Virus record (IMG/VR): IMGVR_UViG_3300027708_000025 | Coordinates: 1-64,000 of that record | Direction: 5' to 3' (one strand) | Length of the DNA stretch: 64,000 nt | Source: a virus | Shown here: piece by piece, positions 17,066 to 43,798 of the stretch | How the letters are laid out: each line of letters begins with the position of its first letter | Numbering within the stretch: position 1 is the first letter of the stretch | The notes under the pieces: model-generated | Told to the model about the DNA's origin: nothing | Databases searched by the model: none | The model's input: only the letters and a program-made list of their open reading frames with translations | Program-made: the position numbers and the translations under genes

Positions 17066-17093
17066 AAAATACCCACATAATTGTTTAGTGGGT
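17066..17093 (-). terminator. Terminator at the end of the sugar operon
   Basis: Minus-strand ACCCAC/GTGGGT six-base-pair stem with an 11-base loop, followed by ATTTTAC. It begins at the stop codon of the last glycosyltransferase gene. Moderate U-tract. Confidence 0.5.
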
Positions 17094-18076
17094 TAGTTAT
17101 TTAGCAATCTATTAAGAATTCTTGAATAATCTTGCCAAACGCTTTCCTTGCTGTATGCTTTATACAGAGGTTCTAGGGGTGCAGTACCATTTGCAATGAT
17201 TTGCCTGATGCTACTATTTTCAATTAAAACGCTAGGTTCTAAGTCCCAATAATTTCGCATCTGATGACTACGTGTTACTGCAATAGGGCGCCCTGACGCC
17301 AATGCATAATCTGGACTACTTGCGAGTCCACATCCATCTAGATAATCATAAAAATAACAGTTAATTGTATTTTGCGCTAACAAGTTAATAATCTGTTGAG
17401 TATCTAATAGATCATGTGTGATGATAACATCAATTCCTGGTTTTGTAATAATGCGTTTAACTTCTTCGGCTCTTGCAAGTGCATTACTTCCTTTACGCCC
17501 ATGAATCTGGTCTTCATAGAATCCAAAAGGAATGTGAAGTCTCAATGTTGCTTCATCGAATTCTTCTTGTACTTTGTGCGCTAGTCTAGCAATGCCTTTG
17601 TGTGGTGGACCAAACCCTTGAAATCCGATGATTGGTTTCTCAGGCTCAACATATGATACTGTTGGTTTTCCTGGAAGCAAACGATTTGTTGTGAACACAT
17701 GCTGTGTCTCTTTCACGCTAGGATCATCTGCAATAATGTATTCCCAACCATGATTGGATCTAGGCGAATATGAATCTGCAATTGATTGGCTCATGTCGTG
17801 CATGATTCGTAGGTGTTTAATGTGTGGAAATACATTTCTCAAATGTGGATGATCCATCCATGGAGTTGTTCCTGGTGCATAGTTATAAACGATTGCTTCA
17901 GGACTTAAAGATAGAATTGCGTCTTCTACTGTATTCATATTGTCTGCGTAAATCATCTTGAAATTAAATTCTGGATGTTCAAGTAATACTTTACCTGTAA
18001 CGTCACCCATCAATCCTATACCACAAGCGGCTTTAAATCCTAAAGTCTGTGTGACAAATAATATAGTACGTTTCAT
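17093..18076 (-). CDS. Glycosyltransferase-like protein (GT-B fold)
   Basis: 327 residues from ATG 18076, two bases after the upstream stop; a longer reading from 18097 would overlap it. Rossmann-like halves: N-terminal 'TILFVTQTLGFKAACGIGLM', and C-terminal 'VIITHDLLDTQQIINLLAQN' and 'SSPDYALASGRPIAVTRS'. The C-terminal pattern of a short helix plus 'DYALASGRP' resembles the nucleotide-sugar site of GT-B enzymes. It is paralogous in layout to the protein at 19046-19972 (DRALASKKPFGV). Sugar and acceptor unknown. Confidence 0.65.
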   Translation of the reverse strand: MKRTILFVTQTLGFKAACGIGLMGDVTGKVLLEHPEFNFKMIYADNMNTVEDAILSLSPEAIVYNYAPGTTPWMDHPHLRNVFPHIKHLRIMHDMSQSIADSYSPRSNHGWEYIIADDPSVKETQHVFTTNRLLPGKPTVSYVEPEKPIIGFQGFGPPHKGIARLAHKVQEEFDEATLRLHIPFGFYEDQIHGRKGSNALARAEEVKRIITKPGIDVIITHDLLDTQQIINLLAQNTINCYFYDYLDGCGLASSPDYALASGRPIAVTRSHQMRNYWDLEPSVLIENSSIRQIIANGTAPLEPLYKAYSKESVWQDYSRILNRLLNN

Positions 18077-18077
18077 T

Positions 18078-19049
18078 TTATTGTTTTCCATTTTCAACTT
18101 GAAAATTAATCCACCGATAGGTTTCTTTCAGTCCTTCTTTCAGATTTTGACTTGGGCGCCAATTTAATTTTTCTTCTATCAACTCATTGTTACTGTTACG
18201 CCCACGTACACCTGTTGGACCATCAATGTGTTTCTTGCGGATTGTTTTGCCTGCAATCTGTGCAACAAGATCAACTGTGTCGTTGATACTAATCATTTGA
18301 TCTGCACCGATGTTAACTGGACCATGAAACGTTTCACTATTCATCAAGTGTCTAACGCCTTCAATACAATCATCAATGTATAGAAAACTTCTAGTCTGTT
18401 CGCCATCACCCCAAATTTCAATTTCATCACCATCATTCGCTTTTGCAATCTTTCTGCAAACTGCGGCTGGAAACTTCTCTTTACCTCCGTCCCATGTACC
18501 ATATGGTCCAAAGATATTGTGAAATCTAGCAACTTTGTTTTGCATACCATGTTGACGATTGTATGCATGAAACAATCTTTCAGAGAATAACTTTTCCCAT
18601 CCATATTCAGAATCGGGATGTGCTGGATATGCACTTGATTCTCTGCAATCAGGATTTACATTTGATGATTGTAGTTCTTCATTGTATACACATGCGCTAC
18701 TGCTGAAGAATACTTTTTTGATGTTCATCTCTTTACATCTATGGAGAACATTCAAATTAATTGTTGCGCTATTGTGCATTACATCTGCATCATATAAATT
18801 TGTATTGATATAACCTGCACCACCCATGTCGGCAGCCAATTGATATACTTCATCAAATTGTTGGTCAATAACATTTTTTACTTCAGATTGTGAAGTTAAA
18901 TCTGCAAGTTGAAAATCATCTGCGTGACTATATTCATGTTCATGTAGTTTTTTATCTACGCCACGAACCCAATAGCCTTCTGATTTTAAACGCTTAACCA
19001 TGTGACCGCCAATGAAGCCACCAGCGCCTAGTACTAATGCAGTTTTCAT
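18078..19049 (-). CDS. NAD-dependent epimerase, GDP-mannose 3,5-epimerase-like
   Basis: 323 residues, short-chain dehydrogenase/epimerase. Nucleotide site GAGGFIGGHMVKRL at residues 8-21, 'YQLAADMGGAGYI' near 68, Ser in 'SSSACVY', and catalytic YGWEK near 150. 'AADMGGAGYI' and 'FHNIFGPYGTWDGGKEK' closely match GDP-mannose 3,5-epimerase and related sugar epimerases. GDP-mannose is the likely substrate because a GDP-mannose 4,6-dehydratase is encoded in the same operon. It overlaps both neighbours by a few bases. Confidence 0.82.
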   Translation of the reverse strand: MKTALVLGAGGFIGGHMVKRLKSEGYWVRGVDKKLHEHEYSHADDFQLADLTSQSEVKNVIDQQFDEVYQLAADMGGAGYINTNLYDADVMHNSATINLNVLHRCKEMNIKKVFFSSSACVYNEELQSSNVNPDCRESSAYPAHPDSEYGWEKLFSERLFHAYNRQHGMQNKVARFHNIFGPYGTWDGGKEKFPAAVCRKIAKANDGDEIEIWGDGEQTRSFLYIDDCIEGVRHLMNSETFHGPVNIGADQMISINDTVDLVAQIAGKTIRKKHIDGPTGVRGRNSNNELIEEKLNWRPSQNLKEGLKETYRWINFQVENGKQ

Positions 19050-19972
19050 TTGTCTAATAATCCTTCGTACAATGTCAATAATTTATTTGGATTCCAAGCA
19101 TCATAGAATTCTTGAAATGGTTCAATTCCACCAGCAACAATATCTTTGATTGAAGTTTTTGTCAAATCGTTGAAATCTCTTCTAGTATGTGATAAGAATG
19201 TAGAATCATTAACGCCAAAAGGTTTCTTTGATGCTAACGCACGATCTACTGATCCACTCACGCCAGGAACATTTGGTGTCTTATACCAATACAGATTAAT
19301 GTCGTTTTGATTTAACCACGTAATCAAATCTTTTTTATTGAAGAATTCTTGAGTCACATTGATTTGAACATTACTCTTAGCAAGTTTTCTACATGCACGT
19401 TCTAATGAATTTGAAAGCCCACCAGATGGATCAACATAAGCACCATTTGCTAAGTGAAGATTTAAAATAACATCTTCGCTAAATTGTTCGTTTATTAATC
19501 CGATGATTTGTTCTAGATTCTTTGTTACATTACTGATGCCACTTGTGCCAATCTTCAATACATCATTGGGTTTTGAATATTGAATGTTATCGTAGTATGA
19601 GATTGGAGGAACGCCAGCGTATTCATCTCCCGATGTTTCTTTTCTAGGGTCGGTAAAAATGTAAGAATTAATTCCAGTAAATTTATTAACGTGTTCATGC
19701 CCAACAATCGCTAATTGTTTAGTCTTTGTTGAATTTGCAATCGGTCTAGTGATACCATTGTTTAGCCAATTCAATGTAGATGGATGATGATTGTATATAA
19801 TAGCATATGGATCTATATCAGCCACTTGTTGATTAAATTCTCTATGTGAATCGGTAGCTAAAAATTCAAACTCATAGTTTTTAGATGTTTTTAAAATTTC
19901 ATATACAGAATCTGCATACTGATAGATACCGCATTCTTTAGTCGCACCAGTTACTAAAATTACTTTTTTCAT
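19046..19972 (-). CDS. Glycosyltransferase-like protein (GT-B fold)
   Basis: 308 residues. It opens 'KKVILVTGATKECGIYQYAD' and has C-terminal 'DLITWLNQNDINLYWYKTPN' then GVSGSVDRALASKKPFGV, laid out like the protein at 17093-18076. 'ATKECGIYQYADSVYEIL' resembles the start of family 4-type transferases. It overlaps the epimerase start by ATGA. Probably transfers a sugar made by the same operon; donor and acceptor unknown. Confidence 0.6.
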   Translation of the reverse strand: MKKVILVTGATKECGIYQYADSVYEILKTSKNYEFEFLATDSHREFNQQVADIDPYAIIYNHHPSTLNWLNNGITRPIANSTKTKQLAIVGHEHVNKFTGINSYIFTDPRKETSGDEYAGVPPISYYDNIQYSKPNDVLKIGTSGISNVTKNLEQIIGLINEQFSEDVILNLHLANGAYVDPSGGLSNSLERACRKLAKSNVQINVTQEFFNKKDLITWLNQNDINLYWYKTPNVPGVSGSVDRALASKKPFGVNDSTFLSHTRRDFNDLTKTSIKDIVAGGIEPFQEFYDAWNPNKLLTLYEGLLDK

Positions 19973-20889
19973 GTTATATGTTTTGTAGGTTTTCTATTGG
20001 AAGAATATGTTGGTGTCAGAATTAAATCACTAATAATCTTAATTGCAACTTGATCGTCTATTGTATCACTAAAATATGAGTTTGTCAAATACTCACCTTC
20101 ACCCATCAAGCAATCACGCATCTTATGGCTAAAGCACATGAAGGTTTGTTCTGGATTGTTCATGTTTGTTTTAGTGTGTGCATACGTAAATGGACCACTA
20201 TTCTTGCCAACAATAAGTTTAGCAAATTGACTGATGTATCCGATTTGATTTAGATTGCCTGTTGGAGAACCAAAAATACTGTCGGTACAGTTTACGTTAT
20301 TTTTAGTAACGCCAATATCATGTGTGATTAGAAATGCATAATCTGGAAAACTAGATGATATCGAATCAATGATATTTTTCATATCACCCATGCTACTCTG
20401 TTCGCTTTGCTGAACACCATTACAAATAAGAATTAAATTCTTTGGAACAATTGTTCTTAGATATGAATCGCATTCTTTTAGATCAAAACGATACCAATCA
20501 ATCTTTGGTAGATAGAAGAAGTAATCGCCTTTCATTTCAATTTCTAATGCATTGAAAATCTCTTTCCACATCGTATGTAGACAATGAAAATTAGCATGAT
20601 CTTTTTCTTTTAAATGTTTACCAATCCAACAACCGACCCAAGTATTGATATATAATGTTTTGGAATCATTCTGCGAAACTGCTAAAGGCACAAACGTGCC
20701 AATAGCAGGAATCTCGTTAAGTGTTATATGCTTACAATTTAAATCCGAAACAATGTTTGCATGATTGTTGTGTGCATATAAGAATTCAACATTAGGGAAA
20801 CGGCTAATGATATCACGAACATATTCTTTGTTTATGAAACAGTCGCCGTTTCTCCATTGATTGAAGAAAACGATCTTGGTGAAATTCAT
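19969..20889 (-). CDS. Putative glycosyltransferase, GT9/heptosyltransferase-like fold
   Basis: 306 residues, no membrane segment. 'KIVFFNQWRNGDCFINKEYV' at the N-terminus and 'ISQFAKLIVGKNSGPFTYAH' at the C-terminus recall the two halves of heptosyltransferase-like proteins (GD near the start; 'GKNSGP' where these enzymes bind nucleotide). I cannot place it firmly. It is coupled to its neighbours by ATGA overlaps. Confidence 0.5.
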   Translation of the reverse strand: MNFTKIVFFNQWRNGDCFINKEYVRDIISRFPNVEFLYAHNNHANIVSDLNCKHITLNEIPAIGTFVPLAVSQNDSKTLYINTWVGCWIGKHLKEKDHANFHCLHTMWKEIFNALEIEMKGDYFFYLPKIDWYRFDLKECDSYLRTIVPKNLILICNGVQQSEQSSMGDMKNIIDSISSSFPDYAFLITHDIGVTKNNVNCTDSIFGSPTGNLNQIGYISQFAKLIVGKNSGPFTYAHTKTNMNNPEQTFMCFSHKMRDCLMGEGEYLTNSYFSDTIDDQVAIKIISDLILTPTYSSNRKPTKHIT

Positions 20890-22109
20890 TTTGAAATAAT
20901 TTCAAAGATTGGGCATGGAACAATAAATGAACCACCCGCATCTAAAAATGCTTTTTCTCTTGTTTGAAATTCGCTAATGAAGTGCCATGGAAGAACCAAA
21001 GCAAAGTCTGGATTTGCTTTACGCATTTCTTCTTCGCTAATAATTGGAATGTTTGTTCCAATTGTTTTATAACCAAACTTGTATGGGCTACGTTCTGCAA
21101 TAGCATTAATGTAAGTACCATCTAAACCAAAGTACTGTAGCAAAGTATTGCCTTTAGTGCTTGCGCCATAACCATAAACACTCTTACCTGAAGATTTTGC
21201 TTCTTCAATAAATGTAAGAACGTCAGTCCGTAAATCATCAAGCCTAACTTTGAATGCATCCCAAACTAAAGGACTTGAAATATCTAACACATTATTCTCA
21301 TACTCAAGAATAGTGTTTACACGATAGTCGCACACATCACGCAAAGGAGAAGTTCCAAAACTTGCAACGTTTGCTGTATCTTTTTGGAAGTAAACTCTGA
21401 AGCTACCACCATTCGTATCGTTCAAACTGCAATCAACAAGATTGAATCCATGTTGAGCAAACAACTTGCTGATACTCTTCAAGTCATAATAGTAAACGTG
21501 TTCGTGGCAGATATTATCAAACGCTAATTGATTGACCATCAAAGGTGTGTAACTCATCTGAAGAACAGCAACGCCATCATCGTCAAGAATGTCATACATG
21601 TCTTGCACAAATGGATGTGGATTGTCTAAGTCATAAAACATTGCAATGCAAGTAATAACTTTTGGTTTTTTATCTGCAAACTTTGTTTTCTTCCATGCAT
21701 CTTTGCTGAAGTAATCTTGTACGACAGTAGCAACTTTACTGCTTTCTGCATAGAAAGAATCGTCACATGGATCAATACCAACTTTGTTTAGATTGTCTGG
21801 TACTGCTTTCAATAAAGTGCCATCGTTACATGCAATGTCAAGCCAAATGTCATCATCTTTCAATTTAACTCTAGATGTGATTTCTTTAACAATGCCTTGA
21901 AGTTCAAGTGTCATGCTAGTATTGATTGCACTACGATACCAATACTTACCCCACATTGTAGATGCTGGTGCAACATCTTTCAATCGTGGTGCGCCTAACT
22001 CTTCATCAAGATACAAATCAAGACTGTACTTTTTACGTCCAGCCATTTCGCCGTCATCTTTGATAAAGTCGCTTACATAGTGATCGCCAAGTTCAAGTAG
22101 TTTTTTCAT
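20886..22109 (-). CDS. SAM-dependent sugar C-methyltransferase-like protein
   Basis: 407 residues from ATG 22109, placed by GAGGAATAAT and the upstream stop. Architecture of the NovU/TylC3 class: N-terminal substrate domain, SAM-binding domain with 'IWLDIACNDGTLLKAVPDNL', the 'NICHEHVYYYDLKSI' motif, and a C-terminal 'GKSVYGYGASTKGNTLLQYF' domain. The usual N-terminal zinc-binding Cys cluster is absent; the protein begins directly at LLELGDHYVSDFI. Members methylate nucleotide-linked keto-sugars, so it may act on the product of the 4,6-dehydratase. Confidence 0.8.
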   Translation of the reverse strand: MKKLLELGDHYVSDFIKDDGEMAGRKKYSLDLYLDEELGAPRLKDVAPASTMWGKYWYRSAINTSMTLELQGIVKEITSRVKLKDDDIWLDIACNDGTLLKAVPDNLNKVGIDPCDDSFYAESSKVATVVQDYFSKDAWKKTKFADKKPKVITCIAMFYDLDNPHPFVQDMYDILDDDGVAVLQMSYTPLMVNQLAFDNICHEHVYYYDLKSISKLFAQHGFNLVDCSLNDTNGGSFRVYFQKDTANVASFGTSPLRDVCDYRVNTILEYENNVLDISSPLVWDAFKVRLDDLRTDVLTFIEEAKSSGKSVYGYGASTKGNTLLQYFGLDGTYINAIAERSPYKFGYKTIGTNIPIISEEEMRKANPDFALVLPWHFISEFQTREKAFLDAGGSFIVPCPIFEIISK

Positions 22110-22110
22110 A

Positions 22111-22488
22111 TTATTCCTCATGTGATTTTTCTTCAACCAATTCTGAATTACAAAGAATATTTATTTCTTTTTTAATTCGGCTTCGTTCATCGTTTGTTTT
22201 ATATATCTTTCTAGCAACCTCAATGAAGTCGCCAGTAAATTGTTGAATCTTTTCATAGTGTCTAATGTCTTCTTCAAGAAACCATAAACGCAAATTGACT
22301 TCCATCAATTCTTGCTGGTGTTCTAGCACATCTTTTTGTATTGTAACATATTCAGAAATAGAAGTCAATGCATCATGTTCATGTTGAACATTGATTAATT
22401 TATTCTTATCTTTGATTTGATTTAACTTGATTTTAAGAATGGTGATCTTGTCTATCAACTCTCCAACACTTACTGGTATATAAATCAT
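22111..22488 (-). CDS. DUF6165-like protein
   Basis: 125 residues, mostly helical. The N-terminal 'IPVSVGELIDKITILKIKL' is the hallmark of DUF6165 proteins, often found in polysaccharide clusters. The C-terminal half is a predicted coiled coil with many Glu/Lys. It overlaps its upstream neighbour by ATGA. Function unknown. Confidence 0.7.
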   Translation of the reverse strand: MIYIPVSVGELIDKITILKIKLNQIKDKNKLINVQHEHDALTSISEYVTIQKDVLEHQQELMEVNLRLWFLEEDIRHYEKIQQFTGDFIEVARKIYKTNDERSRIKKEINILCNSELVEEKSHEE

Positions 22489-23369
22489 TTTCTTTCAATG
22501 TCCTCTTCAATGCAATTTTCGCCATATTGAATTTCAATAACTCTTAACGGCTCATCTGTTTCATTGCAGAGTTTGTGCCATTGCTCTCTACTAATATGTA
22601 GACTTTCAAATTTATCGTAAGTCCCAACTAAGTCCATATCAGTACCAGCATTTAGTGTATAAACTGTAGCAGTACCTTCAGCAACAAACCAATGTTCTGA
22701 ACGATCTTTATGCCGTTGCATACTCAAACAAGTTTTAGCACCAACAGTTAATTCTTTAACTTTGATTTCTTTACCTTGTTCATGCAGTACTCTATAGTAA
22801 CCCCATGCTCTGGTAGTCTTGGGTGCTTTCCACTCTTCAAGAATCCATGAAGATGAATTCATTTTGTTATCACCACCAACAGAGAATACAAATTCTAAAT
22901 TGTCTTTGTATCGTATATCATCAAGCAATCCCATTTCAGGAATGTTTTCTGCTGTTCTATCTCCACCATTTGCAAAAATAATCTTTGCGCCAGGAAATGT
23001 TTGAGTTGATTGTTTGATTGCATTGATAGAATTATTTTCGTCATCATTAAATTCAATAACGTAATCTACCATCTCTAAATTCTTAATCAACTGAAAACGT
23101 TCATTCCAAGTATAGAACGAACGTCCTTTTTTTCTTTTCAACCAAGAATCGGAATTGATACCAACAACAAGTGTGTCGCCTAATGCTTTAGCCGCTTTGA
23201 AGTATGCAAGATGCCCTGAGTGAAGTGGATCAAATCCACCTGTAACTAGAACAACTCTTTTTTCTGGTGATCTGACTAAAACTCTAAAGTTTGGCGCTTG
23301 ACCAAATTCTCTAGCATAAATTGTTTTACCGCCATCTGGACTTTCATATACTACTTTAGGTGTTTCCAT
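22485..23369 (-). CDS. Fusion of a cytidylyltransferase domain and a mannose-6-P-isomerase-type cupin
   Basis: 294 residues with two recognisable halves. Residues about 38-180 carry 'VTGGFDPLHSGHLAYF', the HxGH-type nucleotidyltransferase motif of RfaE/TagD-like enzymes. Residues about 187-294 carry 'WGYYRVLHEQGKEIKVKELT' and 'MQRHKDRSEHWFVAEGTATV', the cupin of type II mannose-6-phosphate isomerase/GMP proteins. The pairing of an activating transferase with a sugar isomerase cupin in one chain is unusual. It may supply or bind an activated sugar for the operon. Catalytic residues of the cupin (His pairs) are present. Confidence 0.78.
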   Translation of the reverse strand: METPKVVYESPDGGKTIYAREFGQAPNFRVLVRSPEKRVVLVTGGFDPLHSGHLAYFKAAKALGDTLVVGINSDSWLKRKKGRSFYTWNERFQLIKNLEMVDYVIEFNDDENNSINAIKQSTQTFPGAKIIFANGGDRTAENIPEMGLLDDIRYKDNLEFVFSVGGDNKMNSSSWILEEWKAPKTTRAWGYYRVLHEQGKEIKVKELTVGAKTCLSMQRHKDRSEHWFVAEGTATVYTLNAGTDMDLVGTYDKFESLHISREQWHKLCNETDEPLRVIEIQYGENCIEEDIERK

Positions 23370-24387
23370 TTTTCTGAATCCTCATTTCACTTTCGCACAT
23401 ATCAAACACCAAGTCTTTAAATGTATACTCTGGTGTCCAACCCAAAACAGTTTTTGCTTTAGTGCAATCACCAAAGATTGTTGGCACTTCTGCTGGACGA
23501 TAAAAGTCTTTGTTCACTTTGATGATAGTCTTACCAGTAGACTTATTGATACCGATTTCACTCAAACCTTCACCTCGCCATTCAATTTCAAATCCGAGAT
23601 ATGTCGCAACATCATTACAGAAGTCTTTTACTGAATGCTCTTCACCACTAGAGATTGCATAGTCATCCGGTTTGTCTTGTTGTAGAATCAACCACATCGC
23701 ACGAACGTAATCTTTAGCATGTCCCCAATCACGCCTTGCTGTTAGATTTCCTAGTTCTAGAATATCTTGCAAACCGAGATGAGTACGAATCATACCTAGT
23801 ACAATTTTGCGTGTAACAAATTCAGGACCTCTACGTGGGCTTTCGTGATTAAACAAAATACCATTGCATGAGAATAGATTAAAACTCTCACGATAGTTTA
23901 CTGTGATCCAATAGCCATACATCTTAGCAACAGCATAAGGTGAACGTGGATAGAATGGAGTGTTTTCTGTTTGTGGAGTTTCTTTTACCTTACCATACAA
24001 CTCACTGGTTGATGCTTGATAAAATTTGACTTGCTTTTCTTTAGACAATCGTTTGACTGCTTCAAGCAATTTGAGTACACCAATAGCGTTAACATCGCCA
24101 GTGTATGTTGGGCAATCATAACTTACGCTAACGTGACTTTGTGCGCCTAAGTTATAAACCTCATCTGGTCTTACTTTGAGAATAATACTTTCAAGATTGG
24201 CCGCATCTGTTAGATCGCTATAGTGAAATGTAATTTGGTCTTTGACATGGTTGATGTTTGCAGTATTGTTTCCTGTACTTGATCGGCGTACAAGACCATG
24301 CACATTATAACCCTTTTCAAGTAGAAGTTCTGCTAGATAACTTCCATCTTGTCCTGTAATACCTGTAATCAAGGCAGTTTTTTGCAT
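23356..24387 (-). CDS. gmd: GDP-mannose 4,6-dehydratase
   Basis: 343 residues, full length. 'TALITGITGQDGSYLAELLL' at the N-terminus, 'VYNLGAQSHVSVSY', 'ASTSELYGKVKETPQTE', catalytic Tyr/Lys in 'SPYAVAKMYGYW', and 'LFNHESPRRGPEFVTRKI' are all diagnostic. It converts GDP-mannose to GDP-4-keto-6-deoxymannose, first step to fucose, perosamine or branched sugars. It is the first gene of the operon, starts behind AGGATGGATATAAT just after the tmRNA gene, and may be read from the tmRNA promoter. Confidence 0.95.
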   Translation of the reverse strand: MQKTALITGITGQDGSYLAELLLEKGYNVHGLVRRSSTGNNTANINHVKDQITFHYSDLTDAANLESIILKVRPDEVYNLGAQSHVSVSYDCPTYTGDVNAIGVLKLLEAVKRLSKEKQVKFYQASTSELYGKVKETPQTENTPFYPRSPYAVAKMYGYWITVNYRESFNLFSCNGILFNHESPRRGPEFVTRKIVLGMIRTHLGLQDILELGNLTARRDWGHAKDYVRAMWLILQQDKPDDYAISSGEEHSVKDFCNDVATYLGFEIEWRGEGLSEIGINKSTGKTIIKVNKDFYRPAEVPTIFGDCTKAKTVLGWTPEYTFKDLVFDMCESEMRIQKNGNT

Positions 24388-24420
24388 ATTATATCCATCC
24401 TATTTTATTGTGAAATCTGT

Positions 24421-24739
24421 GACAGGTTATTCTGTTACGAGGAAACCTGTCGAAACCCTAGTCAGCGTTTAGGCTGCCAATGCGAAACGTGAGTCGTTTG
24501 CGTTTACTTTTTTTTCTTCTTTTTACATCGTTGCTGATGTGCTGTCCACTCTGTTACTCTTTGCCCTGTCGAAACTATGCACCCCCATCAAAAGCATTCT
24601 TAATCTCCAGCATACTTGTGGCGATCAATCCACTTTCAACCTTCTCTGATCCTGCGTCCAGTTTAGAATACTTTTGGTGGAGGTGGGGGGATTCGCACCC
24701 CCGTCCAGAACCTGTTTCTCTTTGCTTCATACAGCAATA
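24421..24739 (-). ncRNA. ssrA: Circularly permuted two-piece tmRNA gene
   Basis: On the minus strand the acceptor half comes first. It has a T-arm of GGGGG, loop TGCGAAT and CCCCC at 24686-24702, then CACCTCC and an encoded ACCA ending at 24675. After an intervening spacer (24587-24674), the coding half starts with GGGGGTG at 24586 and a D-loop-like TTTCGACAGGG. GGGGGTG pairs perfectly with CACCTCC, including the G3-U70 alanine identity pair. The resume codon GCA at 24499-24501 opens the tag ANDSRFALAA with TAA at 24469-24471. An 8-bp hairpin GACAGGTT/AACCTGTC (24421-24451) closes the coding half. The T-loop has G where tRNAs have the second T. Two-piece tmRNAs are known from alphaproteobacteria, cyanobacteria and some betaproteobacteria; the tag is of betaproteobacterial type. 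Confidence 0.92.
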
Positions 24740-24745
24740 ACTAAC

Positions 24746-24774
24746 ATTATAACGTTATTTATACAACTAGTCAA
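24746..24774 (-). promoter_or_regulatory. tmRNA promoter, consensus sigma70 with embedded late-like motif
   Basis: TTGACT (24769-24774), 17-base spacer, TATAAT (24746-24751) on the minus strand. The spacer itself contains TATAAATA (24756-24763), identical to the T4 late promoter. The predicted start near 24739 is just before the acceptor half of the tmRNA. Confidence 0.75.
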
Positions 24775-25435
24775 TCAATACAGCATCATATGCTTCACGG
24801 TAAGATATAAAATCTTTGATGTAATCATTGCGCTTCTTAATGAACACTTGTGGATGTTCAGAGTCAACTGCTATCATAATTACAATTTGTGATACTGGTA
24901 TTCCAGTTCGCTCTTCATACATGACTGCATACGCAGAACATTGCATGAAGTATCCTTTAATCCAACTCTCTTCTTTTAACTTGCCTGAAGTCTTAAAGTC
25001 AATGATAGATAGCTTGCCATCATATTCTGCAATACAGTCAACTCTACCAGCAACTTTTAGATGATGAGAATACAAAGGAATCTCTAGCGCATGAATGTTG
25101 TTTACATGTTCATCTAATAAAGGTTGTAGAGACTTGAACATAGCAACAGAATCGGGCATTGTTTTACGTGCATAGTCTTCTTCGTTGTTCAAATAGTTTT
25201 CACAAATCTTGTGTACTCTAGTTCCACGGCTGGATGCTTTAGTTGAAATACGATTGGCTTCTTCTTCGCCCACACGTTTTCTCCATTCGAGGATTTTATC
25301 TTTGCCGTGCTGAGAGGTAATGGTAGTAACAGAGGGATATAGTAATCCCTCTGGTGTCTTGTAGAATCGTTTGCCGTTTACTGTCTCGGTTTCCAAATCA
25401 TAGTCAATGTCGCATCCAATGTGTTTAAAGTTCAC
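24767..25435 (-). CDS. PD-(D/E)XK exonuclease, RecB/Cas4-like
   Basis: 222 residues with a GTG start at 25435. The catalytic signature 'AGRVDCIAEYDGKLSIIDFK' TS (D...D-x-K) lies near residues 128-148, followed by a QCSAYAVMYEE (Q-x3-Y) motif. An upstream 'RGTRVHKICENYL' helix carries the conserved His of the family. Such nucleases are common in T4-like phages and are thought to help host DNA degradation or recombination. Its 3' end overlaps the tmRNA promoter. Confidence 0.82.
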   Translation of the reverse strand: MNFKHIGCDIDYDLETETVNGKRFYKTPEGLLYPSVTTITSQHGKDKILEWRKRVGEEEANRISTKASSRGTRVHKICENYLNNEEDYARKTMPDSVAMFKSLQPLLDEHVNNIHALEIPLYSHHLKVAGRVDCIAEYDGKLSIIDFKTSGKLKEESWIKGYFMQCSAYAVMYEERTGIPVSQIVIMIAVDSEHPQVFIKKRNDYIKDFISYREAYDAVLID

Positions 25436-38233: not shown

Positions 38234-38308
38234 TGGTGGGCAGAGAGAGAATTGAACTCCCACTCAAGCGATTATGAGTCGCCTGCTTTACCATTAAGCT
38301 ACCTGCCC
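38234..38308 (-). tRNA. tRNA with CAT anticodon, probably Ile2 (lysidine type)
   Basis: Anticodon arm GGCGA-CTCATAA-TCGCT, encoded CCA, A73. The anticodon arm is, as far as I recall, identical to E. coli tRNA-Ile2, whose C34 is changed to lysidine to read AUA. Two other CAT tRNAs nearby fit initiator and elongator Met better. Confidence 0.85.
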
Positions 38309-38315
38309 TAAAACT

Positions 38316-38399
38316 TGGTATGAGAGGAGGGACTCGAACCCTCAATCCTTGCGGCGGGAGATTTTAAGTCTCCTGTGTATACCATTCCACCACTCTCAC
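38316..38399 (-). tRNA. tRNA-Leu (TAA)
   Basis: Stem GGAGA/TCTCC around CTTAAAA; long variable arm as expected for Leu; CCA encoded. Confidence 0.93.
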
Positions 38400-38404
38400 A
38401 TAAC

Positions 38405-38481
38405 TGGCCTGACTGGAGGGATTCGAACCCCCGACCGACGGATTAGAAATCCGTTGCTCTATCCTACTGAGCTACAGTCAG
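38405..38481 (-). tRNA. tRNA-Arg (TCT)
   Basis: Anticodon loop TTTCTAA in stem ACGGA/TCCGT, G73, CCA encoded. Reads AGA/AGG, useful in an AT-rich phage. Confidence 0.93.
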
Positions 38482-38500
38482 AATTAATTTCTATACATGT

Positions 38501-38529
38501 AGTATAGTTTATATTGATTTGTGTGTCAA
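38501..38529 (-). promoter_or_regulatory. Sigma70-like promoter inside tRNA array
   Basis: TTGACA (38524-38529), 17-base spacer, TATACT (38501-38506), minus strand. Reads tRNA-Arg, tRNA-Leu, the Ile2-type tRNA and on into the RNase H-like operon. Confidence 0.7.
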
Positions 38530-38530
38530 G

Positions 38531-38604
38531 TGGAGCGGGGTAGGAGAATCGAACTCCTGACTTCAGTTTGGAAGACTGAGGTAATACCATTTTACGAACC
38601 CCGC
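38531..38604 (-). tRNA. tRNA-Gly (TCC)
   Basis: Loop CTTCCAA in stem TCAGT/ACTGA, acceptor GCGGGG/CCCCGC, U73, CCA encoded. Confidence 0.92.
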
Positions 38605-38610
38605 ATTTTT

Positions 38611-38684
38611 TGGCATCTCCTGAGAGACTCGAACTCCCACTTACGGTTTTGGAGACCGCAGTACTGCCATTATACTAAGGAGAC
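38611..38684 (-). tRNA. tRNA-Trp (CCA)
   Basis: Loop CTCCAAA in stem GCGGT/ACCGT, G73, CCA encoded. Confidence 0.92.
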
Positions 38685-38689
38685 ATTTG

Positions 38690-39223
38690 TTACGGATTCT
38701 TTGCAGAATGTGGTACATCAAACACGAATGTAATCCTGTCTACTGTACCATTGTTCCACGCAGAATGATATTTCTTATTGTCAAACCAGAAAAATGTTCC
38801 TGGTTCTATTTGTCTTTCTTCACCATCTACTTCATACAAGTAAGTGCCTTGCAATGATAAATGATATCTATCTCTTGTCTCATAATATGTACCATCGTCA
38901 ACGTGGCGACCAACACTATCGTTTGGATTTAATTTAAAGAAAGCGGCTCTTGAAGTTTGCGTAATGTCGTGCTTCTTAAGATACTTTCTCACTTCAGTAT
39001 ACTTATCATAAAGCGGTGTGCGTCTTTGCAAATCAGAATTTTTAGGATTCTCATCTGGACTACGAACCATCGCCATCACTAGAGGAAGAAACCCATACGG
39101 ATTCTTTTCCCCACCAATCTTAGAATAAGTAGAAACTGCTTGCCAATCTGTATCGTCAATCTGCCCTAGAATTTTACTTATGTCAATTCCAGTTTCAATG
39201 AATCTAAAATTACTCATCATCAT
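38690..39223 (-). CDS. Aspartyl/asparaginyl beta-hydroxylase-like oxygenase
   Basis: 177 residues. The double-stranded beta-helix core has 'VGRHVDDGTYYETRDRYHLS' and 'EVDGEERQIEPGTFFWFDNK', then YHSAWNNGTVDRITFVFDV. The spaced His residues and the Arg fit an iron/2-oxoglutarate site of the aspartyl beta-hydroxylase group. First of three oxygenase-type genes between tRNAs; substrate (protein, sugar or nucleic acid) unknown. Overlaps the next gene by 14 bases. Confidence 0.72.
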   Translation of the reverse strand: MMMSNFRFIETGIDISKILGQIDDTDWQAVSTYSKIGGEKNPYGFLPLVMAMVRSPDENPKNSDLQRRTPLYDKYTEVRKYLKKHDITQTSRAAFFKLNPNDSVGRHVDDGTYYETRDRYHLSLQGTYLYEVDGEERQIEPGTFFWFDNKKYHSAWNNGTVDRITFVFDVPHSAKNP

Positions 39224-39869
39224 ATTCCATCAATTGCATACTTCCCGTATGCGGAAAATCGTATCTATCAAAGTGGTCAAAATTTGTTTTACCAATTGGC
39301 ATAATATTCACACCAACAATGATTCTATAATTGCAATCAGTAGGACTTGTTTGATGCGTTGCCCATGCGGGAAACATAACTAACGTACCTGCGACAAAAG
39401 GTAACTCTTCTTGAGACTTCAACATCAATTCATTTTTATCTGAAATTGCAGGTTGTATTACATATTTCTCTGCACCTAGATTTGGAAATACTGTTCCGCT
39501 TGCATTACCATCAGCATCAAACAAATGAAATGAACCACCCAAGAAACTATTCGCATGACTGTGCATGTGATGAAAGCCACCAGCTTTTTGTCTAGTCGCC
39601 CACATACTTGTAATCCCACACTCATCATAATAACCCATATCATCCATTGCATACTTACCACAACTGTGAATGAAGTCTGTTAACTTTTTAACTTTATCAT
39701 CTTTGTGTAAGTTTGCTCTAGTGATTTGAAGCCCATTCCTTTCACGTTCAGAAAGATATAGATTATCCTGTGCAAGATATCGCACTAAGAATTCTTGGTC
39801 ATTCTCAAAGTTTGGATAATGAAATCTCCAAACTGGTGTGTAGAATAGTTTATGTAATTCGACTTTCAT
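39210..39869 (-). CDS. 2OG-Fe(II) oxygenase
   Basis: 219 residues. 'HHMHSHANSFLGGSFHLFDA' near residue 102 and 'VAGTLVMFPAWATHQTSPTD' CNYRIIVGVNIMPIG near 170 are the paired blocks of the putative 2OG-Fe(II) oxygenase family common in marine phages. The HxH...H pattern supplies iron ligands and the final Arg contacts 2-oxoglutarate. Substrate unknown. Confidence 0.8.
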   Translation of the reverse strand: MKVELHKLFYTPVWRFHYPNFENDQEFLVRYLAQDNLYLSERERNGLQITRANLHKDDKVKKLTDFIHSCGKYAMDDMGYYDECGITSMWATRQKAGGFHHMHSHANSFLGGSFHLFDADGNASGTVFPNLGAEKYVIQPAISDKNELMLKSQEELPFVAGTLVMFPAWATHQTSPTDCNYRIIVGVNIMPIGKTNFDHFDRYDFPHTGSMQLMEYDDE

Positions 39870-40045
39870 TTGTTTTCAAACTCATCATCATACAAACCCA
39901 TCTCTTGGCTGATACGAACCATTTCATCCAATGCGGCTTCTTGGCGTTTTTTTGCAAATGCTCTTTGCTCTTCTTCGGTTCCTAATTCATATCCTTTATC
40001 AGAATGAATCTCTTCGGCTGCCGCAATATTCTTTTTGTCTATCAT
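39866..40045 (-). CDS. Small acidic helical protein
   Basis: 59 residues, unannotated by length filters. 'MIDKKNIAAAEEIHSDKGYE' LGTEEEQRAFAKKRQEAALDEM, then an acidic tail. Coupled on both sides by ATGA overlaps to an acetyltransferase-like gene and an oxygenase. Possible accessory subunit; no family known. Confidence 0.6.
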   Translation of the reverse strand: MIDKKNIAAAEEIHSDKGYELGTEEEQRAFAKKRQEAALDEMVRISQEMGLYDDEFENK

Positions 40046-40488
40046 AAAATCACCCTATGATATTCGTAATTAACTGTATCTTCATTTTCTCTAAAAACAA
40101 CTGCACCATTACGCAAATGAAAACGTCTAGCCAATTCAGTCTTTGGACTTAGCGTAAGGTATCTTTGAATTTCTGGTTTGTTTTCTTTGATGTGACTAAC
40201 AGCATCAAAAATTAATGTACGACCGGCACCTGGAGCATAACTCCAAATGGTATAAAAAATTGCAACAATAGGTTCAGATGAAACTTGAAATAACTCTGTT
40301 TCTTTTGTTGGAATTTCTGTCTGATAACTTACGCATGTGATTGCTTTCACTTTGTCATCTGGATCACGCAACACAAAGATATCTTTGTTGTCGCCAACCC
40401 TATCAACATGTGGAATATGAGGGCGCACAGGATCCTCACTTAACATACTCATTACACTATCAGTAAAAGATTTTATTAGATATAACAT
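40042..40488 (-). CDS. GNAT-like acetyltransferase
   Basis: 148 residues from ATG 40488 (a GTG at 40515 is possible). 'DKVKAITCVSYQTEIPTKET' and 'APGAGRTLIFDAVSHIKENK' followed by 'TLSPKTELARRFHLRNGAVV' follow the beta-helix order of GNAT enzymes (cofactor loop, then the 'ARRFHLRNGA' block near the C-terminus). Substrate unknown. Confidence 0.55.
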   Translation of the reverse strand: MLYLIKSFTDSVMSMLSEDPVRPHIPHVDRVGDNKDIFVLRDPDDKVKAITCVSYQTEIPTKETELFQVSSEPIVAIFYTIWSYAPGAGRTLIFDAVSHIKENKPEIQRYLTLSPKTELARRFHLRNGAVVFRENEDTVNYEYHRVIL

Positions 40489-40528
40489 TTTTTTATTCTC
40501 ATTTTTTATTCTCACTTCTCTACATTAA

Positions 40529-40603
40529 TGGTGGAGGATGGGAGGATCGAACTCCCACTTCAGACTTGCAAAGCCCATGTGCTCCCATTATCACTAATCC
40601 CCC
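40529..40603 (-). tRNA. tRNA-Ala (TGC)
   Basis: Loop TTTGCAA; acceptor GGGGGAT/ATCCTCC with the G3-U70 alanine identity pair; A73; CCA encoded. The anticodon stem contains two G-U pairs. Confidence 0.88.
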
Positions 40604-40605
40604 AT

Positions 40606-41130
40606 TTAACTCGGTGTTATGGTGTTAAACGAAATCACCGTTTTTCTTTTATGTCCTAAGTTTATAGGAGAACGATGCCACAAAGTTGCTGGCATCGTTA
40701 AAATATAACCTTCTTCGACATTAGGAATTACAATAGATTCTGTTTTTTGATTCCTAATTTGAGTCTTAACATCATCACTTGGTAACTCCAGATAATAAAC
40801 ATTTGTCCAATTTGCTGTGCCATGAACATGCCAACCATGAAAACTATTGTTATAGTACTGTTGAAACCAACAATTTAAATATCCAAATTGGGTAAATCCT
40901 AATTTTGAATATACATTTTTCATATGCTCAGTTAGAGAAGGACGTAAAATATTCCAATATTTTCTCTCGACATTCTCTTCAACATACCAATCAGTATTAG
41001 TAATTTTTTTGTCATCATTGATAAAAATTGACATACTATCAATGCTTTTGAGAAGAACATTTTTTAAATTGTCATGTTCTTCAAATTTAGATACCGCATA
41101 TGGACAGTCAATGTAATTGATATCAATCAT
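40606..41130 (-). CDS. 2OG-Fe(II) oxygenase-like protein
   Basis: 174 residues. 'FHGWHVHGTANWTNVYYLEL' PSDD (HxH) and 'GYILTMPATLWHRSPINLGH' KRKTVISFNTI (H...R) give the expected iron and cofactor ligand order. Third such enzyme in 2.5 kb. Codon use is more AT-rich than its neighbours, which may mean separate acquisition. Confidence 0.65.
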   Translation of the reverse strand: MIDINYIDCPYAVSKFEEHDNLKNVLLKSIDSMSIFINDDKKITNTDWYVEENVERKYWNILRPSLTEHMKNVYSKLGFTQFGYLNCWFQQYYNNSFHGWHVHGTANWTNVYYLELPSDDVKTQIRNQKTESIVIPNVEEGYILTMPATLWHRSPINLGHKRKTVISFNTITPS

Positions 41131-41145
41131 TATTTTTCAATAAAT

Positions 41146-41349
41146 TTATTTTAGCATTTCTACAACTTCTTCTAGTGTCTCACTTACTTCCCATGTGCCA
41201 TGAGGAGGTCCATAAACAAATGTTACATCTTCAATTACTCCATCTTCACGGGTAACAGTATTTCTGTGTATCGTAACAATTAAATCTTTTCTGATTGAAA
41301 CTTTGTGTCCTCTAAACTCTGGACTTGAATTCGTTAGTGTTATAAACAT
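41146..41349 (-). CDS. FlbD-like small protein
   Basis: 67 residues: 'MFITLTNSSPEFRGHKVSIR' KDLIVTIHRN, then 'VTFVYGPPHGTWEVSETLEE' VVEML. The beta-strand pattern with a 'G-W-V-E' end resembles FlbD-type small proteins. Many phages encode such proteins; role unknown. Confidence 0.55.
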   Translation of the reverse strand: MFITLTNSSPEFRGHKVSIRKDLIVTIHRNTVTREDGVIEDVTFVYGPPHGTWEVSETLEEVVEMLK

Positions 41350-41375
41350 GATATTATCCTTTAAAATTATTAAAC

Positions 41376-41449
41376 TGGTCTCGGTAGCAGGAATCGAACC
41401 TACGCTCTATCGTCCCAAACGACAAGTGATACCATTTCACCATACCGAG
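41376..41449 (-). tRNA. tRNA-Pro (TGG)
   Basis: Loop TTTGGGA in stem TGTCG/CGATA, acceptor CTCGGTA/TACCGAG, A73, CCA encoded. Confidence 0.9.
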
Positions 41450-41450
41450 T

Positions 41451-41458
41451 TATTTATA
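41451..41458 (-). promoter_or_regulatory. TATAAATA late-like motif between tRNAs
   Basis: Minus-strand TATAAATA, identical to the T4 late -10, lies two bases upstream of tRNA-Pro. A start here would fall within the tRNA, so it may be chance. Confidence 0.2.
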
Positions 41459-41459
41459 C

Positions 41460-41533
41460 TGGTGCCCCATGACAGAATCGAACTGCCGTTACCTGAGTAC
41501 AAAACAGGTGTTCTACCATTTAACTAATAGGGC
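41460..41533 (-). tRNA. tRNA-Thr (TGT)
   Basis: Loop TTTGTAC with stem ACCTG/CAGGT and one U-U mismatch next to the loop; acceptor GCCCTAT/ATGGGGC; CCA encoded. Confidence 0.82.
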
Positions 41534-41538
41534 GAAAC

Positions 41539-42282
41539 TTAAATTGCTTTCTCAATTATATTCTTAGCTAAATTATCCACATCGGCTCTTATGGTGCCTC
41601 CGAGAATAACAATTGCATACTGCTCACCATTCTTATGTACTATCATAACAAGACACTTACCAGCCGCATTCGTTGTGCCAGTTTTGGATACTTCAATGAT
41701 ATCAAATTTATTCATCAACTTCACGTTAGTGTTATTGACTGAAATGTGTTTTTCTTTATTCTTCTTATCTACAACAGTTAAATCGTATCTACTCAATGCT
41801 GATATCTCACGTATTTTATCATGTCTATACGCATCTGTCAACAAGACAACCAAGTCCCTTGCGGTACTGGTATTCCTTGCGCTTAGACCAGACGTATCAT
41901 CAAATTTTGTATTGTACATCTCTAGCGCAATTGCACGTTTATTCATTTGGTAAACTGTCCACAATTTACCGCCCATGCTTTCTGCTAATGCTTCTGCGGC
42001 TCTGTTGTCACTTTTGATTAACATTAAATTTAATAATTCTTCTCTAGTAAACTTATTGTGTGAATAAAACATTCCTTTGTATGGAACTTTCTCATTCAAT
42101 GGAACTCCACTTTCAATTATGACAAGTGCGGTCATCAATTTTGTAATGCTTGCTATTGGTCTTATTGTATCAATTTCAGAATCAACAATTGGATACTGTT
42201 TAGTGATATTGTATGTGTAGACTGTAATCGCACTAGCACTTAATGCCGACAGCAATACTAAAGATAAGATTATTTTTTTCAT
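41539..42282 (-). CDS. Exported D-alanyl-D-alanine carboxypeptidase/endopeptidase (S11)
   Basis: 247 residues from ATG 42282; the frame extends to 42351 but would then run through tRNA-Asn. Signal peptide 'MKKIILSLVLLSALSASA', catalytic 'IRPIASITKLMTALVI' (SxxK), 'MLIKSDNRAAEALAE' (SDN) and 'EVSKTGTTNAAGKC' (KTG) complete the penicillin-binding protein triad of S11 peptidases such as PBP7. It would trim or open peptide cross-links in the periplasm. Such enzymes are cellular and rare in phages; placement between tRNAs suggests capture from a host. Confidence 0.9.
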   Translation of the reverse strand: MKKIILSLVLLSALSASAITVYTYNITKQYPIVDSEIDTIRPIASITKLMTALVIIESGVPLNEKVPYKGMFYSHNKFTREELLNLMLIKSDNRAAEALAESMGGKLWTVYQMNKRAIALEMYNTKFDDTSGLSARNTSTARDLVVLLTDAYRHDKIREISALSRYDLTVVDKKNKEKHISVNNTNVKLMNKFDIIEVSKTGTTNAAGKCLVMIVHKNGEQYAIVILGGTIRADVDNLAKNIIEKAI

Positions 42283-42296
42283 ATGATTCTTTGTAA

Positions 42297-42371
42297 TGGC
42301 TCCAGAGGCAGGGATCGAACCTACGACCAATTGATTAACAGTCAACTGCACTACCGCTGTGCTACTCTGGA
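42297..42371 (-). tRNA. tRNA-Asn (GTT)
   Basis: Loop CTGTTAA in stem GTTGA/TCAAT, acceptor TCCAGAG/CTCTGGA, G73, CCA encoded. Confidence 0.92.
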
Positions 42372-42379
42372 ATAGAAAA

Positions 42380-42455
42380 TGGTTGCGGGTGAAGGATTCG
42401 AACCTCCGTCCTTTAGGTTATGAGCCTAATAGTCTGACCTCTGACGTAACCCGCT
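42380..42455 (-). tRNA. Initiator-like tRNA-Met (CAT)
   Basis: Loop CTCATAA in stem TTAGG/CCTAA. The 3' end CCCGCAACCA is that of bacterial initiator tRNAs and leaves position 1-72 unpaired (A-A here, C-A in E. coli), the main fMet feature. Only two of the three anticodon-stem G-C pairs are kept. Confidence 0.75.
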
Positions 42456-42469
42456 ATAATATATATGTA

Positions 42470-42545
42470 TGGAGTGAGTGACAGGACTCGAACCTGCATT
42501 ATACGGACTTGCAAACCGTTGCCTAGCCTTTCAGCGCACACTCAC
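42470..42545 (-). tRNA. tRNA-Cys (GCA)
   Basis: Loop TTGCAAG (closing U-U mismatch), acceptor GTGAGTG/CACTCAC, U73 as in bacterial tRNA-Cys, CCA encoded. Confidence 0.87.
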
Positions 42546-42552
42546 ATAAATT

Positions 42553-42680
42553 TGGCGCTCTACAGGATTCTCACCTGTTCACTGGAGACCCTATAATCAG
42601 GGTTTTTATCCCTCTACTGCCATGAATTGCGAATTCATCGTAGAACCCAAGTTGCGAACTTGGCGTGGAAATATCAGAGC
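42553..42680 (-). ncRNA. Unassigned tRNA-like or structured RNA
   Basis: On the minus strand it ends GCCA in the same manner as neighbouring tRNAs and has a T-arm-like ACAGG-TGAGAAT-CCTGT, but the acceptor plus T stack is two bases too short. Two hairpins of identical design, CCAAG-TTCGCAA-CTTGG and ATGAA-TTCGCAA-TTCAT, sit where the D arm should be. ACCCT/AGGGT encloses a six-base loop. Not a normal tRNA; possibly a degenerate tRNA or a different RNA. Phe is the only amino acid lacking a tRNA in this array. Confidence 0.4.
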
Positions 42681-42687
42681 ATAAACT

Positions 42688-42762
42688 TGGCGGTCTGTAG
42701 GAGAATCGAACTCCTGTAAGTGGATAGACAATCCACAGTAATAACCTCTATACGAACAGACC
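42688..42762 (-). tRNA. tRNA-Asp (GTC)
   Basis: Loop TTGTCTA in stem GTGGA/TCCAC, acceptor GGTCTGT/ACAGACC, G73, CCA encoded. Confidence 0.92.
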
Positions 42763-42768
42763 AAAACT

Positions 42769-42853
42769 TGGTGGAGATGATAGGGATCGAACCTATTGTG
42801 ACTTAAGTCGGAAGATTTACAGTCTCCTGCCATACCATTACGGCGGCATCTCC
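42769..42853 (-). tRNA. tRNA-Tyr (GTA)
   Basis: Loop CTGTAAA, long variable arm as expected for Tyr, acceptor GGAGATG, A73, CCA encoded. Confidence 0.92.
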
Positions 42854-42854
42854 A

Positions 42855-42980
42855 TGGTATTAGATTAGTTGACGCACTATTTGCTACGCTCAACGGAATT
42901 AGTGGCCACCTTACCGTTTATGTACGCAGTTACTCAGGCGTTACGATTGCCCATGGCTTACGTCAACTAATCTAATACCA
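42855..42980. repeat. 20-bp perfect inverted repeat enclosing 86 bases
   Basis: Arms 42855-42874 (starting TGGTATTAGATT) and 42961-42980 are exact reverse complements. The enclosed 86 bases contain further stems (AACGG/CCGTT around a GTGGCCAC palindrome). It sits just upstream of tRNA-Tyr and holds no credible reading frame. Either strand could fold; as tRNA spacer RNA it would form a long closed helix. Confidence 0.75.
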
Positions 42981-42981
42981 C

Positions 42982-43183
42982 ATTTAATTACACTGGATGA
43001 TTGACAAAAATAACAGTTTTGAACCTGCCCTACCATGTCGTCCATGGATTTGCTTGTCAACCACATTACAGACCAAGTTGTTCCAGCGTGATTCGCTCGT
43101 TCATGTAATCTAGAAGTGCCAGTCCGTCAACTGGTTCTCACTTGTTAAATTACCTACTGGCTTGGTAACCAATGTAATTAAAT
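42982..43183 (-). ncRNA. Structured RNA candidate downstream of tRNA-Glu
   Basis: Closed by an 11-bp stem ATTTAATTACA/TGTAATTAAAT at its two ends, starting one base after the tRNA-Glu CCA. Inside, on the minus strand: CCAGT-TGACGG-ACTGG within AAGTG/CACTT, CCATG-GACGA-CATGG within TTGACAA/TTGTCAA, and CAG/CTG around GTTCAAAA. No reading frame. The nested arms look selected, but no known class was recognised. Confidence 0.5.
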
Positions 43184-43184
43184 C

Positions 43185-43260
43185 TGGTACACCTAGGGGG
43201 AATCGAACCCCTCGTTTGCGCCTTGAAAGGGCGCCGTCCTAACCGTTAGACGATAGGTGC
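43185..43260 (-). tRNA. tRNA-Glu (TTC)
   Basis: Loop CTTTCAA in stem GCGCC/GGCGC, acceptor GCACCTA/TAGGTGT, CCA encoded. Confidence 0.92.
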
Positions 43261-43306
43261 ATAATTTTTTAAAGAACATTTGATTGATTTCTCAATCTAT
43301 GAATAG

Positions 43307-43359
43307 AGTATAACACTCTAAACATTTCCTGTCAACAACTATTTTTGGTAACTGTTGTT
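43307..43359 (-). promoter_or_regulatory. Composite promoter inside tRNA array, copy 5
   Basis: TTGACA (43330-43335), 17-base spacer, TATACT (43307-43312), AACAAC/GTTGTT repeat up to 43359. It would transcribe tRNA-Glu and everything downstream of it. Confidence 0.78.
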
Positions 43360-43371
43360 TTTTATTAACAC

Positions 43372-43459
43372 TGGCAGAGAGTATGAGATTCGAACTCATG
43401 CACCGCTTTCGCAATGACAGTTTAGCAAACTGCTCCTTTAACCACTCAGGCAACTCTCT
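43372..43459 (-). tRNA. tRNA-Ser (GCT)
   Basis: Loop TTGCTAA in stem GCAGT/ACTGT, long variable arm, G73, CCA encoded. Confidence 0.92.
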
Positions 43460-43462
43460 ATA

Positions 43463-43552
43463 TGGCGGAAGCGGTGAGATTCGAACTCACGGAACATTTC
43501 TGTTCGCTAGTTTTCAAGACTAGTGCCATAAACCGGACTCGACCACACTTCC
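43463..43552 (-). tRNA. tRNA-Ser (TGA)
   Basis: Loop CTTGAAA in stem CTAGT/ACTAG, long variable arm, G73, CCA encoded. Confidence 0.92.
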
Positions 43553-43558
43553 ATAACT

Positions 43559-43633
43559 TGGTGCGCCCTGAGAGAATCAAACTCCCACTTCAACGTTCGT
43601 AGCGTTGTGTAATATTCATTTTACTAAAGGCGC
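43559..43633 (-). tRNA. tRNA-Arg (ACG)
   Basis: Loop CTACGAA in stem CAACG/CGTTG, acceptor GCGCCTT, A73, CCA encoded. A34 would need deamination to inosine. Confidence 0.9.
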
Positions 43634-43644
43634 ATAAAAACATT

Positions 43645-43722: not shown

Positions 43723-43724
43723 TT

Positions 43725-43798
43725 TGGTTCCCAGAGCAAGAATCGAACTTGCGATAAAGGCTTATCAAGCCTACGTTATACCATTTAACTATCCGGGA
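43725..43798 (-). tRNA. tRNA-Ile (GAT)
   Basis: Loop TTGATAA in stem TAGGC/GCCTT, acceptor TCCCGGA/TCTGGGA, A73, CCA encoded; two bases from the previous tRNA. Confidence 0.9.

Follow-up and report, generated by a model that had tools for sequence, protein, structure and literature searches.

The window, that is, the whole stretch of 64,000 nucleotides that was analysed, belongs to a record which is a 150,107-bp T4-like virus sequence with T4-like gene content (gp32, tail tube, baseplate hub, tail tube cap, PhoH and a T4-type exonuclease). On its minus strand, positions 24421-24774 hold a circularly permuted two-piece tmRNA gene, in which the acceptor piece and the coding piece are separated by an intervening segment (IVS). 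The locus consists of the following parts:

24767-25435, minus strand: upstream neighbour, a phage exonuclease (PD-(D/E)XK, phrog_298), assigned by domain and PHROG match
24746-24774, minus strand: sigma-70-like promoter TTGACT-17-TATAAT, a consensus match that reaches into the end of the exonuclease gene upstream
24675-24736, minus strand: acceptor piece with P2 strand, GGAC, T-arm, CACCTCC, A73 and CCA (ARAGORN, Rfam, sequence; mature 5' end predicted)
24736-24731, minus strand: P2 strand of the acceptor piece, TGCTGT (sequence)
24691-24697, minus strand: T-loop TGCGAAT with G55 at 24696, where U or pseudouridine is usual (sequence; covariation with A18)
24587-24674, minus strand: IVS of 88 nt, non-coding here and presumably absent from the mature tmRNA (sequence)
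24666-24674, minus strand: 5' strand of the 9-bp IVS helix that extends the acceptor stem, pairing with 24599-24591 (covariation, precursor fold)
24591-24599, minus strand: 3' strand of the IVS basal helix (covariation)
24590-24587, minus strand: conserved TGAT directly after the 3' strand of the IVS helix (sequence)
24421-24586, minus strand: coding piece with GGGGGTG, D-loop, P2 strand, hairpin, tag frame and 3' hairpin (ARAGORN, Rfam, sequence; mature 3' end predicted)
24575-24576, minus strand: D-loop residues A18 (24576) and G19 (24575) (sequence; 18-55 covariation)
24545-24540, minus strand: P2 strand of the coding piece, ACAGCA (sequence)
24469-24501, minus strand: tag frame GCA...TAA encoding ANDSRFALAA-stop, resume codon GCA at 24501, stop at 24471-24469 (ARAGORN, sequence)
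24421-24451, minus strand: 3' terminal hairpin GACAGGTT/AACCTGTC (sequences of relatives)
23356-24387, minus strand: downstream neighbour, GDP-mannose 4,6-dehydratase (PF16363, E 3e-141)

ARAGORN predicted a permuted tmRNA (tmRNA*) on the minus strand at 24378-24767 with the tag ANDSRFALAA*. The covariance search proposed in the first-pass annotation returned both tmRNA_permuted RF04321 (119.8 bits, gathering score 47, E 8e-23) and beta_tmRNA RF01850 (100.5 bits, gathering score 84, E 2e-29), so that the gene belongs to both families by score, far past chance expectation. ARAGORN and the two Rfam models thus agree with the two-piece architecture described there, in which the acceptor half precedes the coding half. 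The remaining anatomy can be read directly from the strand and is as first described: CCA is encoded (24677-24675) and directly preceded by the discriminator A73 at 24678, GCA opens the frame for ANDSRFALAA-stop, and in the 7-bp acceptor stem GGGGGTG (24586-24580) pairs with CACCTCC (24685-24679), one pair being G3-U70, the identity pair for alanine. The acceptor halves are complementary in every relative retained for analysis, through several distinct sequences, and the 3' terminal hairpin is altered on both sides in two of the relatives (L010 and L086). In close relatives the mature pieces and the tag frame are conserved while the promoter and the downstream flank are divergent. The precursor has a minimum-energy fold of -91.8 kcal/mol (z = -2.4 against shuffles); such a plain fold does not recover the full tmRNA shape, which depends on pseudoknots and tertiary contacts.

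The gene had also been credited with its own promoter, and TTGACT-17-TATAAT indeed agrees with the consensus in 11 of 12 bases. Two copies of exactly this pattern are present in the 64 kb, where 0.04 are expected, although a match alone is no proof of function. An intrinsic terminator was searched for downstream of the tmRNA gene and none was found. The T4 late promoter motif TATAAATA at 24763-24756 was given no weight because the window contains it no more often than chance would give (3 occurrences versus 6 expected). Rfam gave no riboswitch match in the window at gathering score.

Permuted phage tmRNAs had been called rare, which is too strong since they are documented and common in viral contigs. 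A survey from 2022 counted 53 two-piece molecules among 133 distinct phage tmRNAs, nearly all aquatic, and described the permuted tmRNAs of the OM43 myophage Melnitz and the Pelagibacter phage Mosig (PMC9004378). As a kind, the two-piece phage tmRNA is therefore already known from marine phages. Both phages resemble that of the window in being T4-like myophages with a permuted two-piece tmRNA, and Mosig also shares the upstream PD-(D/E)XK nuclease and the A18-G55 elbow described below. However, the Mosig tmRNA fits the alpha model whereas the tmRNA studied here has a beta-like body and tag. In metagenomic viral contigs, a single pattern for the acceptor piece matched at least 119 stretches, most of them confirmed as permuted tmRNA by ARAGORN; counts from such contig scans are lower bounds. 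Relatives of the exonuclease were examined at 59 loci that extend for 2.2 kb or more downstream; 25 of these carry a permuted tmRNA within 2 kb downstream on the same strand, a placement also found in the isolate Mosig. Together, the known cases and these counts show that the gene is widespread in phages and that the window adds a new member to it. ARAGORN also predicts permuted tmRNAs, none of them annotated, in the isolates Xanthomonas phage Rb1 (L267), Alcaligenes phage QDWS595 (L268) and phiCbK (L273). No close isolate relative of the window phage was found in the phage collection, where the DNA comparison gave one 2% match and the exonuclease matched at less than 60% identity.

In addition to the tmRNA, the window contains 24 tRNA genes (ARAGORN) at 38234-44366, on a single strand and covering most amino acids. 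One of them, tRNA-Arg(acg) at 43559-43633, has the D-loop TGAAT and the T-loop TTTGATT and thus reads A19-U56 in place of G19-C56, which may be a compensatory change of the elbow. The region directly downstream of the tmRNA gene (17093-24387) carries genes of sugar-nucleotide/LPS type, e.g., the GDP-mannose dehydratase, and includes cytidylyltransferase and mannose-6-phosphate isomerase domains. The absence of an SmpB gene, first noticed in the window, extends to the whole 150,107-bp record: no PF01668 match was obtained there, and the same search was positive in 10 of 14 control genomes. As the phage has no SmpB, that of the host would be needed.

The tag ANDSRFALAA differs from ANDERFALAA only at residue 4, as first stated. 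However, the proposal that tagged proteins may for this reason be degraded differently is unsupported. Residue 4 is S or E among close relatives, and the AND...ALAA ends are kept. ANDSRFALAA was found again in close relatives, and L010, whose exonuclease is 88% identical, carries ANDERFALAA. At this residue the AND tags of phages have E (42), S (32), N (27), A (14), D (6) or T (4), and those of the sampled bacteria E (23), N (2) or D (1), phages and bacteria being unevenly sampled. The E. coli signals are ALAA for ClpX and AANDENY for SspB (PMC8512704), and both regions are largely preserved in the window's tag. It has been suggested that phage tmRNAs aim their tagging at host products (PMC9004378), a reading with which the preserved AND...ALAA would agree, but tmRNA acts on stalled ribosomes regardless of the mRNA, and nothing points to a preference for host proteins. 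We consider this reading unlikely.

A degenerate pattern for the tag gave six matches in 84,980 species genomes, all in one-piece tmRNAs. ANDSRFALAA itself occurred only in Jezberella montanilacus, whose tmRNA is also one-piece, and none of these genomes yielded a permuted tmRNA carrying this tag. This argues against the gene being a captured, non-functional host ssrA, a remnant that might be expected from the use of host ssrA as an integration site by mobile elements and from the ssrA fragments in prophages (PMC9004378). Further evidence on this point comes from the covariation within the gene.

In the tRNA elbow, G18 pairs with the universally conserved pseudouridine 55 (PMC4810234). The window tmRNA instead has A18-G55, with A at position 18 of the D-loop CATAGTTTCGAC and G at position 55 of the T-loop TGCGAAT. 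The change is confined to the tmRNA, as T55 is present in 24 of the 24 phage tRNAs of the window. Among 124 unique permuted tmRNAs, G18/U55 was found in 52 phage and 25 bacterial sequences and A18/G55 in 47 phage sequences, with no mixed combination. On a quick tree of 144 sequences, built from 183 columns with D-loop and T-loop excluded, positions 18 and 55 switch jointly in all 144 sequences, with 24 state changes on the best tree. At least eight of the joint changes are placed on branches with good support, and all of the independent pairs (8 of 8) agree (p = 0.008); the tree counts are partly weighted by a set picked via a Shine-Dalgarno plus ATG motif. The D-loop/T-loop contact of a permuted tmRNA is thus seen as 18/55 covariation. 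Because the two positions lie in different mature pieces, their covariation is evidence that the pieces meet, and it strongly supports a folded tRNA-like domain built from both pieces and under selection.

The betaproteobacterial type assigned in the first-pass annotation holds for the body, which matches RF01850, but not for the elbow. With the betaproteobacterial permuted tmRNAs the window shares the body, the resume region, the AND...ALAA tag and the layout of acceptor stem and P2. However, the bacterial beta-type molecules have G18-U55, IVSs of mostly 25-65 nt and tags such as ANDERFALAA, ANDESYALAA, ANDENFALAA and others, none being ANDSRFALAA. All 25 unique permuted tmRNAs sampled from Burkholderiales have G18-U55 and none has A18-G55, a regularity of the present sample rather than a published criterion for the beta type, and the window departs from it. 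A18-G55 is the state of the alpha_tmRNA consensus (RF01849), i.e., the alphaproteobacterial permuted tmRNA shares the elbow with the window and differs in body and tag.

G55 is not an invention of phages, since the T-arm pattern also occurs in 12 of 399 Pseudomonadota genomes, where the D-loops inspected have A18, and since the RF01849 consensus has both A18 and G55. A sequencing error was ruled out because G55 recurs together with A18 across many contigs. The isolates Mosig, phiCbK and CcrRogue (the last judged by eye) have the A18-G55 elbow as well. The equivalent pair in E. coli, G13-U342, was reportedly tied to SmpB function by Barends et al. in 2002. In Caulobacter, a G has been noted at the place of U342 (PMC1168896). 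The A18-G55 form is therefore not new in itself; new are its repeated switching within phage tmRNAs, the occurrence of an alpha-type elbow inside a beta-type body, and the co-evolution of both tmRNA pieces at a tertiary contact.

Covariation was also found in the IVS. In distinct viral IVSs ending in TGAN, the first nine bases were compared with the nine preceding TGAN. For 114 such IVSs, 8.62 of 9 positions pair on average versus 6.54 with shuffled partners, and every type of pair is seen at some positions; these counts, too, are partly weighted by the set picked by motif. The window's IVS has 9 of 9 helix pairs, is otherwise non-coding and is nearly unchanged in close relatives (mean identity 0.977), and there are relatives in which the whole IVS has been swapped out. 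In the sampled bacteria the IVSs are shorter than in phages. From these comparisons, the IVS is a replaceable cassette, with a covarying helix of 9 bp closing it off. The co-evolution of 18 and 55, the covarying helix and the intact tag across many divergent contigs largely refute the reading as a remnant of host ssrA, which is highly improbable.

In relatives the exchanged segment can be a small protein gene. L007 and L189, with acceptor pieces almost identical to that of the window, have an ORF of 50 amino acids in the IVS. This ORF (MKYKIVVK...NTII) fills the IVS of L007, L189, L404-L410 and L414-L420 and is free-standing in L412/L413. It is conserved at the protein level, with dN/dS mostly 0.1-0.25. 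Among the 19 loci of family A, 13 lie within an IVS according to ARAGORN, two more (L407 and L421, cut by the contig end) are alike by their flank, and the others are free-standing. A family of 52 amino acids (KLKELQENLAKDL...) is present in L067, L078, L318 and L423-L456, in many contigs within the IVS, and in L438, L439, L451 and L454 it lies immediately before a tmRNA. Family B occurs in IVSs and also free-standing or a short way upstream of a tmRNA, and in L436/L437 its ORF persists between apparent decayed tmRNA remnants. Further IVSs contain a membrane-protein-like family of 41 amino acids (L108, L190, L368), a protein of 64 amino acids (L022) or other small proteins. Usually CCA is followed by T/A-AAGGA and, a few bases on, by the start codon, and the stop codon TGA is often located inside the terminal TGAT.

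Among the IVSs at least 75 nt long in two sets that were not chosen for ORFs, 4 of 12 and 6 of 38 were positive in a strict test for a Shine-Dalgarno sequence plus ORF, versus 0.09 and 0.27 expected from shuffling. A third set, picked by the Shine-Dalgarno plus ATG motif, served for examples only. The dN/dS values are mostly 0.05-0.3 for families A-C, and 0.36-0.5, from few sites, for the short family H. The excess over shuffles together with these ratios rules out that the ORFs are there by chance, and as far as substitution patterns tell, the predicted nested proteins are real and under purifying selection. They gave no Pfam match above cut-off and one weak PHROG match of unknown function, and families A-C were not found in isolate phages.

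Other cargo was observed as well. In L003, ARAGORN predicts a tRNA-Arg(ccg) inside an IVS of 117 nt. L138 has in its very long IVS of 237 nt a further stretch resembling a T-arm and another copy of CTCCACCA, which may reflect a partial tmRNA duplication. Excerpts of a 2025 survey (PMC11915505) report one tRNA gene inside the IVS of a permuted tmRNA, plus one repeat, and mention no protein genes in IVSs. That case resembles the relatives of the window in that the IVS hosts another gene, but the relatives host protein genes. In the literature found, the coverage of which is incomplete, a small protein gene inside a tmRNA gene was not described earlier. What we regard as new, on the evidence of the sequences, is that in close relatives a small protein gene makes up the discarded stretch between the two pieces.

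The gene anatomy, its conservation, the co-evolution of the pieces and the lack of a phage SmpB are observed, and from them we infer the processing, alanine charging and use of the tmRNA and its benefit to the phage. We consider it likely that this is a functional two-piece tmRNA which sustains trans-translation during infection by means of host enzymes. A single transcript would be made from its own promoter, with the acceptor stem running on into the 9-bp IVS helix. Host tRNA-processing enzymes would then excise the IVS, with RNase P cutting at GGGGGTG and 3' trimming to CCA. The mature pieces would pair through acceptor stem and P2, and the 18-55 contact would close the L-shaped tRNA-like domain. 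After charging by host AlaRS, the tmRNA would be brought by host SmpB and EF-Tu to stalled ribosomes, which would append (A)ANDSRFALAA. Most likely it would serve, as part of a translation kit with the 24 phage tRNAs, to maintain trans-translation while host transcription fails and mRNA is cut.

Alternatively, the phage tmRNA might be a decoy that competes for host SmpB or AlaRS and lowers host trans-translation. According to work cited in PMC4131195 and PMC11915505, a tmRNA consisting of the tRNA-like domain only inhibits the resident tmRNA, and a decoy role has been proposed for such an RNA of mycobacteriophage DS6A. However, a decoy would not need a tag frame, a resume codon and a stop, all of which are intact and kept in relatives, and this role is quite improbable.

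For the IVS we tentatively propose, with somewhat less than even confidence, a composite gene in which the IVS is a cargo slot for small protein genes, a switch between translation and maturation would report translation activity, and the window's IVS is a non-coding allele. In many of the nested genes the Shine-Dalgarno sequence lies within the IVS helix. Because it is part of the precursor helix, translation of the small protein may be incompatible with folding or maturation of the tmRNA. The switch is put forward as a hypothesis that does not concern the window's own IVS.

Ribosome rescue encoded by phages is barely studied. The natural 18-55 variants provide matched tmRNA pairs for probing the role of the elbow for SmpB, and are useful here because two separate RNA molecules must maintain the contact. 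If the nested genes are real, a segment thought to be discarded in maturation is coding, and if the switch proves true, the translation of a phage protein would be tied to the making of a ribosome-rescue RNA.
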